Shown here piece after piece: positions 12,321 to 13,325 of a DNA stretch of 51,843 nt (position 1 is its first letter; each line of letters begins with the position of its first letter). Source of the DNA: Prolixibacteraceae bacterium (lineage in GTDB: Bacteria; Bacteroidota; Bacteroidia; Bacteroidales; Prolixibacteraceae); NCBI GenBank assembly GCA_019459485.1, contig JAIBEZ010000090.1, forward strand, positions 1-51,843, written 5' to 3'. A program made the translations under genes and the position numbers. The notes below the pieces were generated by a model. That model saw nothing but the letters and a program-made list of their open reading frames with translations, was not told the DNA's origin and did no database searches.

Positions 12321-12664
12321 CTACTGTTGCAATTTTGATTTACCGTCATTCAAAATTTATTGTTTGTGCTGCCACGTATGGGTATTCAAGAGAAAAGAGC
12401 ATGTCCGCAACTTTAACATTTAAGTTAAGCTTGCAAAGTTGCTCTTGATTTCATAAAGGAATTGTAAAGTTTTGATGCGGGGATATAAGGATTTTATAAA
12501 GATTTACATTTATGGGTTGAAAAGGTTTTTTTGATGGGTCAATACCATAGTTTTCAACCTGTAATTTTGATCTTGGTAGCCAATTGAAGCATATTTCAAT
12601 GTGGAAATTATAACTGTATTCAAAAAAAATCACTTAGCCAGTTAATAGCTAAGTGATTGATTTG
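12321..12664. other. Spacer upstream of trkH
   Basis: About 340 bp between trkH and the tRNA. It is AT-rich, with no ORF I believe and no exact TAnnTTTG box on either strand. The promoter of trkH is presumably here but cannot be pointed out. Confidence 0.4.
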
Positions 12665-12736
12665 TAGTCCCACCGGGAATCGAACCCGGATCTACGGTTT
12701 AGGAAACCGCTATTCTATCCGTTGAACTATGGAACC
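12665..12736 (-). tRNA. tRNA-Arg (anticodon CCU)
   Basis: A complete 72-nt cloverleaf on the minus strand: acceptor GGTTCCA/TGGGACT (with G-U pairs), D arm around GTTC-AACGGATA-GAAT, anticodon stem GCGGT/ACCGT with loop TTCCTAA (anticodon CCT), and T arm CGGGT-TCGATTC-CCGG with a T-A or G pair at its base. Discriminator A at 12665; CCA is not encoded. The first ten bases (GGTTCCATAG) also encode the end and the TAG stop of the upstream GIY-YIG gene. Confidence 0.95.
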
Positions 12737-12969
12737 ATTCTTCTTAACTTTTCTTTTCCTATGCCAGTTTTATAATATTTCTCCTTTTCTCTTGCTTCAA
12801 TCCTATTTGTGCATTCTTCAGTAAAAATAATTACCCAAGGACGAAATCCTTTGGTAGATTTGGTCTTTCCAGAACTATGCTCTTTAAGCCTTTTTTCAAC
12901 ATTTGAGGAAAACCCGACATATATTCTTCCATCAAACTGACTATGCAATGCATACACTGTATATTTCAT
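12727..12969 (-). CDS. GIY-YIG nuclease domain protein overlapping tRNA-Arg
   Basis: 80 residues, a stand-alone GIY-YIG domain of the small UPF0213/YhbQ type. The motifs are YTVYALHS (in place of GIY), RIYVGFSSN (YIG motif), the conserved arginine in VEKRLKEH, and the acidic region RIEAREKEKYYKTG. Its ATG (12969-12967) immediately abuts a truncated tRNA copy at the T loop. Its last residues MVP and the TAG stop are read from the first bases of the intact tRNA-Arg. No Shine-Dalgarno is seen. The placement between two tRNA copies suggests a small mobile or tRNA-targeting unit (see findings). Length is typical of the family. Confidence 0.85.
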   Translation of the reverse strand: MKYTVYALHSQFDGRIYVGFSSNVEKRLKEHSSGKTKSTKGFRPWVIIFTEECTNRIEAREKEKYYKTGIGKEKLRRMVP

Positions 12970-13044
12970 CGAACCCGGATCTATGGTTTATGAAACTGCT
13001 ATTCCCTGCCTACCGCAGGCAGGTATCCGTTGAACTATGGAACC
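12968..13044 (-). pseudogene. Degenerate partial copy of tRNA-Arg
   Basis: On the minus strand this begins GGTTCCATAGTTCAACGGAT exactly like the intact tRNA, continues through the anticodon arm and ends in the T loop (GGGTTCGAT), where it runs into the ATG of the GIY-YIG gene. The 3' half of the T arm and the 3' acceptor strand are missing. A 19-bp palindrome (13005-13023, CCTGCCTACCGCAGGCAGG) is inserted after the D arm. The anticodon loop reads TTCATAA and its stem no longer pairs. It cannot make a working tRNA. Confidence 0.85.
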
Positions 13045-13325
13045 ATAAAATTTAGTCCAGAATCTTGAATCTTGAATCTCGAATGAAGCTTCGATCAGCA
13101 TTAATTCTTGTTATTGGATATTGATTCAATATTTGACATTTCTTTTTCAGCCGCTGCAAAAATATGCAAATATGCCGTTTATGCAAAAAGCACCGAACAT
13201 ATTTTTTAAGCGACATACATTTGCTTTGAGGCTGCGAATTTTAACAATGTATAAATTCAATGCTGCGGTTCATCTTTGTTCCTGCTTAGAAACATTATAA
13301 ATTAGTTATTTTACACGTCATTTTA

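Follow-up and report, generated by a model that had tools for sequence, protein, structure and literature searches.

A small GIY-YIG nuclease gene between two copies of a tRNA gene looks like an overlooked kind of selfish element living off tRNA genes

The closest described counterpart of the locus reported here is SegB of phage T6, a free-standing GIY-YIG homing endonuclease whose breaks map inside tRNA genes, with the motif RAWTSGAAC at 23 of 83 break sites (accessible portion of PMC13096335). The same portion of that paper states that SegB activity is required for tandem amplification of tRNA-Tyr together with segB, for which its authors propose that the 5' region of the tRNA recombines with the 3' region of segB, and that segB co-localises with many tRNA isotypes in phages. 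In T4, segB sits between tRNA-Arg and tRNA-Ile (accessible portion of PMC2988022). GTTCSAWTY, the reverse complement of the break-site motif, would correspond to the T-loop consensus.

The units described here resemble SegB, as far as the accessible text on that enzyme goes, in that a stand-alone GIY-YIG gene lies among tRNA genes and that segments of tRNA plus nuclease occur in tandem. SegB and its surveyed relatives are genes of phages or archaeal viruses in the accessible text of PMC13096335, whereas the tRNA-linked family resides on cell chromosomes. Moreover, the tRNA-linked protein is, compared with SegB, little more than a bare GIY-YIG domain, and the tRNA-linked units have a palindrome-bearing partial tRNA copy, which is not met for SegB in that same text. 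Matches to the PHROG homing-endonuclease families 314 (E = 9e-5) and 7168 (E = 5e-4) are weak, and the likeness to SegB is one of description. Relatives were found in 11 of 50,697 phage records, at 33–35% identity, and one scan of viral contigs in IMG/VR gave no confirmed relative, so a phage origin, or a phage-encoded family, is unsupported. A small GIY-YIG gene of Rhizobium phage RHph_TM21B (L309) is distantly related, at 34% identity; in this neighbourhood, the one among the phages that was annotated and opened, no tRNA is annotated next to that gene.

By profile, the nearest proteins are the stand-alone UPF0213/Slx1-like ones, of which UPF0213 is of similar size. In a 2006 survey of the GIY-YIG superfamily, the text mentions tRNA a single time, in connection with a TrmH fusion, and the term also occurs in the titles of two references (accessible portion of PMC1564403). 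REPtrons consist of a RAYT and REP palindromes, and RAYTs are HUH tyrosine transposases (accessible portion of PMC3733652). The tRNA units share with REPtrons the pairing of a small gene of nuclease type with a palindrome, and one palindrome type is also dispersed in the genome; whereas REPtrons have the RAYT, the tRNA units have a GIY-YIG protein, and their palindrome lies within the tRNA copy. No RAYT-type (HUH) match was seen for the protein, which matches GIY-YIG families only. tRNA genes are also classic attachment sites, and islands integrated there typically retain the tRNA 3' end. In integrase-borne islands, as in the tRNA units, an intact tRNA and a partial duplicate flank the insert; the units differ in being without an integrase, in their small size, in retaining either tRNA end and in forming tandem arrays. 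We found no earlier description of the unit in the literature searched, a scope that mostly excluded subscription papers, and none is given in the accessible portions of PMC3733652, PMC12306157, PMC10448857 and PMC1564403.

The tRNA-Arg unit and its site in related genomes

The window, i.e. the whole stretch of 51,843 nucleotides that was analysed, belongs to a Prolixibacteraceae genome of 5.53 Mb in 114 contigs. On its minus strand, a partial copy of tRNA-Arg(CCU) is followed by a GIY-YIG ORF and then by the intact tRNA-Arg(CCU) (Table 1), so ARAGORN, local alignment and PF01541 bear out the order given in the original prediction. The junctions are also as predicted. The A of the ATG is the A of the T loop TTCGA in the partial copy, and the TAG stop (12729–12727) coincides with bases 8–10 of the intact tRNA, within its first ten bases. 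No other tRNA is called by ARAGORN in the window, and a DNA search of the same genome with tRNA-Arg(CCT) returned the window's full-length gene and partial copy, and nothing else.

Table 1. Features of the tRNA-Arg unit and its flanks (positions in the window)
Feature	Position	Strand	Basis or remark
Intact tRNA-Arg(CCT)	12664-12736	-	ARAGORN; Rfam RF00005, 64.6 bits
Small GIY-YIG nuclease ORF, 80 aa	12727-12969	-	PF01541, E 1.8e-15
Partial tRNA-Arg copy, tRNA bases 1-58 plus inserted palindrome	12968-13044	-	Local alignment
19-nt palindrome CCTGCCTGCGGTAGGCAGG	13005-13023	-	Follows tRNA base 21 (D loop) in partial copy
Probable tRNA promoter TTTG, 19 nt, TATTTTTG	13157-13187	-	Upstream of partial copy; read from sequence
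Terminator-like hairpin and T run	12622-12656	-	3' of intact tRNA-Arg; read from sequence

The partial copy gives an alignment score of 78, compared to 24 or less elsewhere in the window. It had been described as decayed. It is indeed partial, but decay was an overstatement: apart from the 19-nt palindrome, it carries 3 substitutions in 58 bases. The same structure of partial copy plus palindrome is present in two further species (G013 and G021), and the palindrome is identical across these and the window's own genome (G000). The copy and the intact tRNA begin 308 bp apart (12737–13044). The nuclease is the only ORF of at least 50 aa on the tRNA strand of this stretch, and the 308 bp contain no integrase or recombinase gene, in line with what had been noted originally.

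The probable promoter, which we take to be one from the Bacteroidota promoter consensus, would co-transcribe the partial copy, the nuclease and the intact tRNA-Arg. A stretch resembling it also precedes tRNA-Arg at the empty sites of relatives. Rfam matches to SNORA41, SpF41, MIR1507 and HOTTIP_2 were under their gathering scores and were taken as chance.

We then compared the tRNA-Arg site across 23 genomes of the genus (the window's own and 22 others), 18 of which yielded tRNA-Arg(CCT) beside the sdh operon; left out of the count are G005, whose locus has no called tRNA, and four genomes that were not reached. Both nuclease and partial copy are present in 3 of the 18 species (G000, G013 and G021), with copy scores of 83–91. 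The site in the remaining 15 contains neither (scores of 26 or less), the call for one of these (G016) resting on 96 bases downstream. Thus the site is empty in most relatives examined, as anticipated, and the nuclease is not a constant feature accompanied by an unduplicated tRNA. By eye, the sequence upstream of the partial copy looks like that preceding the tRNA in an empty genome (G015), which places the insert within the tRNA or on its border.

The Arg site is empty in the nearest relative (G014, sdhC 95% identical) and occupied in G013 and G021, whose sdhC is 75–76% identical to that of the window's genome. Among the occupied species, nuclease DNA at this locus is 80–82% identical and sdhC 75–80%. 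As nuclease identity is barely above that of sdhC, the gene may have descended vertically at the Arg locus, with losses. Here the nuclease is under purifying selection: by NG86, dN is 0.09–0.11 and dS 1.0–1.3 (near saturation), for a dN/dS of about 0.07–0.11. This result concerns one locus.

Recurrence of the unit beside tRNA genes

To find relatives, named genomes were scanned with an alignment of the family (A1), and the best 80 of 160 were kept. A tRNA lies within 400 bp in 66 of these 80, which represent one subfamily by design since the search used a PW-containing pattern. Pooling all GIY-YIG domains gave 272, or 237 without duplicates, and 217 distinct domains of at least 60 aa. A tRNA lies within 400 bp of 106 of the 217, and in every case (106/106) the nearest tRNA is on the same strand as the nuclease. 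It is upstream of the nuclease in 69 and downstream in 37 (hereafter tRNA-up and tRNA-down units), and 16 isotypes are represented. One caveat here is that ARAGORN at times calls palindrome-bearing copies as tRNAs (e.g. a 'Tyr' at locus L001), and hence a few of these nearest tRNAs may be copies. A phylum is named for 62 of the 106 domains. Bacteroidota account for 50, and the others are from CPR phyla, Chloroflexota, Chlorobiota, Ignavibacteriota, Rhodothermota and Verrucomicrobiota.

We also drew a sample by PF01541 alone, regardless of tRNA, comprising 90 loci from 118 Bacteroidota genomes, of which 60 loci were picked in list order rather than at random. In this sample, 23 of 32 domains with a PW/PF motif are near a tRNA, compared to 1 of 63 others. 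The corresponding Fisher P value (9e-14) is descriptive, as the motif class was defined with the first 30 loci already in view. Among the nine PW/PF exceptions, four have a tRNA 413–735 bp upstream and five have none, three of the latter being at contig ends. These data argue against a general enrichment of GIY-YIG domains at tRNAs; unlike the tRNA-linked units, other stand-alone GIY-YIG domains of the Bacteroidota sample are rarely found there. For the small nuclease itself, they support the earlier suggestion of a recurrent unit with homologues strongly enriched at tRNA genes.

The association extends to a CPR-rich set of 12 genomes reached from the loci (nine CPR, one Chloroflexota, one Verrucomicrobiota and one other bacterium), with 2–16 matches per genome. 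A tRNA is within 400 bp of 42 of 65 domains, 12 of whose loci had already been fetched, and is on the same strand in 41 of the 42. The motif is less sharp in this set, 23 of 30 domains with PW/PF and 19 of 35 without it being near a tRNA. In one CPR genome of 0.9 Mb (G439), nine of 14 loci examined are units at nine different tRNA genes, and in another of the same size (G435), seven of 11 loci examined adjoin tRNA genes, all on the same strand. Small GIY-YIG matches are numerous in these genomes of under 1 Mb (14 in G435 and 16 in G439), many of them beside different tRNAs.

tRNA copies, tandem arrays and palindromes

Is duplication of the tRNA as general as its proximity? We looked on the far side of the nuclease for a second copy of the same tRNA, requiring a score of 30 and one above those of 100 shuffles; one of the 106 loci had too little sequence and was omitted. 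A copy was found in 86 of 105 loci (60/69 tRNA-up, 26/36 tRNA-down) and was not detectable in 19. The true neighbour outscored all tRNAs of other anticodons in 81 of the 105. Far-side copies were less frequent in the CPR-rich set (12/29). The outer end is mostly kept, tRNA-down copies mostly starting from base 1 and tRNA-up copies mostly running through the last base. A fixed junction at the T loop in all units was considered and rejected, as tRNA-down copies break off anywhere from base 32 to base 58, and one of them at base 73. The original suggestion that the proteins have C termini of translated tRNA proved well founded: the ORF stop falls within the intact tRNA in 23 of 36 tRNA-down units, often at base 10, and within the copy in 40 of 60 tRNA-up units that have one.

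Change in the copies is unevenly distributed. Outside the anticodon arm, mean identity is 94% for tRNA-up (n = 44) and 98% for tRNA-down copies (n = 15); inside the arm, it is 75% and 82%, respectively. Of the 86 copies, 59 enter this comparison, from which Leu, Ser, Tyr and unnamed tRNAs are excluded; it uses local alignments, which favour matching ends. Within these bounds, the concentration of change in the anticodon arm argues against decay as the whole story, and 'decayed' is inexact as a general label for copies that, where scored, are mostly near-identical outside the palindrome-bearing region.

The window's genome has tandem arrays at two other tRNA genes. After tRNA-Met, a terminator-like hairpin and a first nuclease gene precede a Met copy, behind which lie a second nuclease (with one in-frame TAA) and a further Met copy. 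At tRNA-Val, the nuclease follows the tRNA and is itself followed by a Val copy and the start of another repeat at the contig end. On this contig (C63; L001, positions 1–200), the assembly terminates within the second tRNA-Val/nuclease repeat, so the Val array is probably longer than assembled.

The Met locus was compared in 20 genomes. Five have a nuclease (G000, G014, G009, G002 and G001), two (G022 and G006) contain remnants in the form of a GIY-YIG fragment plus tRNA copy, and one (G007), whose locus yielded no tRNA call, was left unjudged. The other 12 are empty, with best copy scores of 14–32 in 500 bases upstream and 700 downstream. A gene that stands alone, at a site found empty in closely related genomes, is a mark of homing endonucleases of the Seg type, and it is seen here for both Arg (15/18) and Met (12/20). 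The Met copy of G014 is clearly decayed, too much so to be scored. In that of G006, the first bases and the anticodon arm (now TCCCGATGATATCGGGA) differ from the tRNA and the remainder is identical. The stretch after the first Met copy in G001 resembles the tRNA terminator of that same genome, to which the terminator of the empty G021 is also close. Terminators beside Met copies thus resemble those of the host, and tRNA plus terminator look locally duplicated; the suggested arrival of a replacement tRNA along with the element is not borne out.

Many copies have acquired a palindrome. With arms of at least 6, a new palindrome is present in 62 of the 86 copies, compared to 6.4 expected (maximum of 10 in 50 shuffles), and absent from 24. 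The types tend to occupy particular positions, although related loci are not independent in these counts: 14 of 16 palindromes of the CCTG type begin at tRNA position 20–22, 18 of 24 of the TCCCG type at 26–29, and nine of 17 of the TCCG type at 37–39, all nine in tRNA-Met. Five are of other types. We also searched in the reverse direction, scanning 395 Bacteroidota genomes with a pattern for the palindromic-arm Val copy. Six matched, compared to none for the reversed-pattern control, and five of the six loci have a GIY-YIG domain. The sixth (L073, near position 1500) lacks one; it has a palindromic-arm tRNA fragment between tRNA-Thr and tRNA-Trp, which is perhaps a unit that lost its nuclease.

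The nuclease and the origin of the units

The nuclease of the Arg unit belongs to the GIY-YIG superfamily, its PF01541 match being over the cut-off. In an alignment of 31 members, Y17, R27 and E63 are invariant and Y6 is at least 90% conserved; we take these two Tyr, the Arg and the Glu to be the GIY-YIG active-site residues. The nearest structures by profile are those of UPF0213 (PDB 1zg2, E = 5e-13; 1ywl, 7e-13) and SLX1 (5e-7), the match to I-TevI being weaker. For seven proteins tried, NCBIfam gave no family at its cut-off.

In a quick tree, the best split, picked after the fact and with a support of 71, assigns every one of the 106 tRNA-linked domains to the same side. The opposite side holds 65 domains without a tRNA and not one that is tRNA-linked. 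The tRNA side also includes 38 tRNA-less domains away from contig edges, such as second copies in tandem, small subgroups and a paralogue of doubtful catalytic competence. On the tree of the 106, there are at least 35 changes of isotype (63–72 when shuffled) and 17 of polarity (27–35 when shuffled), which suggests that units stay with one tRNA for a time and then switch. Named rows show 12 phylum changes, a count without a shuffled control.

We consider it probable that these units are chromosomal, free-standing elements that home into and segmentally duplicate tRNA genes, akin to SegB, the nuclease being a minimal one of the Slx1/UPF0213-like kind, and we infer that it cleaves DNA and that the units move. 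The nuclease would break DNA in or beside tRNA genes, and repair through tRNA homology would leave its gene between two tRNA copies; the tRNA–nuclease segment could then multiply in tandem. One copy would be retained as the working tRNA, and the other would keep its outer part, often fused to the nuclease ORF. A strong palindrome, usually in the D loop or anticodon arm, would disable the spare copy as a tRNA. By interrupting the direct repeat, it would also make clean loss harder and could render some possible deletions lethal at a single-copy tRNA. Several observations favour this homing mechanism, namely the presence of both empty and occupied sites, the empty Arg site of the sister species G014 when more distant species are occupied, the invariant strand (106/106), the enrichment of one motif class in the Bacteroidota sample (23/32 versus 1/63), the tree split and the isotype changes, the far-side copies, the loci matched by the palindromic Val pattern and the tandem arrays. 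There is also the precedent of T6 SegB for both tRNA-gene cutting and tandem tRNA–segB amplification, as given in the accessible text of PMC13096335. Homing does not account for how an occupied genome escapes self-cleavage, as the intact tRNA-Arg of occupied sites has the same variants as the tRNA of empty sites. Nor does it account for specificity towards tRNA genes in a small nuclease with no visible DNA-binding domain. Also weighing against it are the loci lacking a far-side copy (19/105), the lower copy frequency in the CPR-rich set (12/29), the copies lacking a new palindrome (24/86) and, at the Arg locus, the small margin of nuclease over sdhC identity.

If homing is the correct explanation, a common and very small selfish element at tRNA genes in several bacterial phyla has been hidden behind 'GIY-YIG nuclease' annotations and stray tRNA copies. 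It would be a cellular counterpart of phage SegB from which tRNA duplications and mis-called tRNAs could naturally arise, and would offer a testable handle on the spread of REP-like palindromes in these bacteria.

A bolder proposal, which we regard as doubtful, is that the units form a separate class of tRNA-gene parasite in Bacteroidota, CPR and other bacteria. Here, a structure-sensitive nuclease of ∼80 aa would recognise tRNA genes and palindromes by their hairpin geometry, duplicate the host tRNA and lead to a palindrome at a fixed position in the spare copy. The same enzyme would then account for the duplicated tRNAs as well as for the scattering of REP-like palindromes in these genomes.

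Alternatively, the nuclease may be a passive hitch-hiker, carried along when an adjacent tRNA undergoes ordinary tandem duplication, with the spare copies left to decay. The host-like terminators beside Met copies, which make duplication look local, and clearly decayed copies such as that of G014 are consistent with this idea. However, the 15 empty Arg sites show no tRNA duplication and the 12 empty Met sites no clear one (scores of 26 or less against 83–91, and of 32 or less, respectively). Hitch-hiking also fits poorly with same-strand placement across 16 isotypes, with the near absence of other Bacteroidota GIY-YIG domains from tRNAs (1/63), with the dN/dS of about 0.1 at the Arg locus and with the concentration of copy changes in the anticodon arm. 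We therefore judge it unlikely.

We likewise give little credence to a REPtron-like arrangement, in which palindromes would be mobile passengers mobilised by the GIY-YIG protein and the palindromic tRNA copy would be their place of launch or capture. The excess of new palindromes at mostly few tRNA positions (62/86 copies, 6.4 expected) is in keeping with such an arrangement, as is the nature of the nearest solved structures, UPF0213 and the structure-specific nuclease SLX1. Moreover, a REP-like palindrome of the TCCCGAT type (TCCCGAT-N2-6-ATCGGGA) is dispersed over 56 sites in the window's genome, with none for the reversed control. Arguing against it, 13 of 15 dispersed-palindrome loci fetched (L174–L188, extending as far as 1.5 kb on either side) are free of tRNAs and of GIY-YIG domains and the other two are the Met array, while the CCTGCCTG-type palindrome occurs at two sites in this genome, one being the Arg unit. 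A further dispersed site (C49) has a GIY-YIG gene, though not of this type, ∼70 bp away. Some TCCCGAT-N2-6-ATCGGGA sites are paired, 43 bp apart.

Integrase-type attachment, with the unit as cargo of an island whose recombinase was lost or acts in trans, is very improbable: tRNA genes are indeed classic attachment sites and a partial copy beside an intact tRNA resembles attachment-site duplication, but the nuclease is alone in its 308-bp stretch, both polarities occur (69 and 37) rather than the 3' end typical of islands, and tandem arrays exist.

One 3-Mb Bacteroidota genome (G093) has 25 PF01541 matches. Within the genus, 13 genomes, including the window's own (contig C40), have a small, conserved GIY-YIG paralogue that lost the active-site Arg and probably the Glu (GYFEDLEKVLEMHN; loci L009, L018–L020, L022, L025–L028, L030–L032 and L039). 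None of the 13 is near a tRNA, and the paralogue looks, from its residues, like a catalytically dead protein that has been kept.
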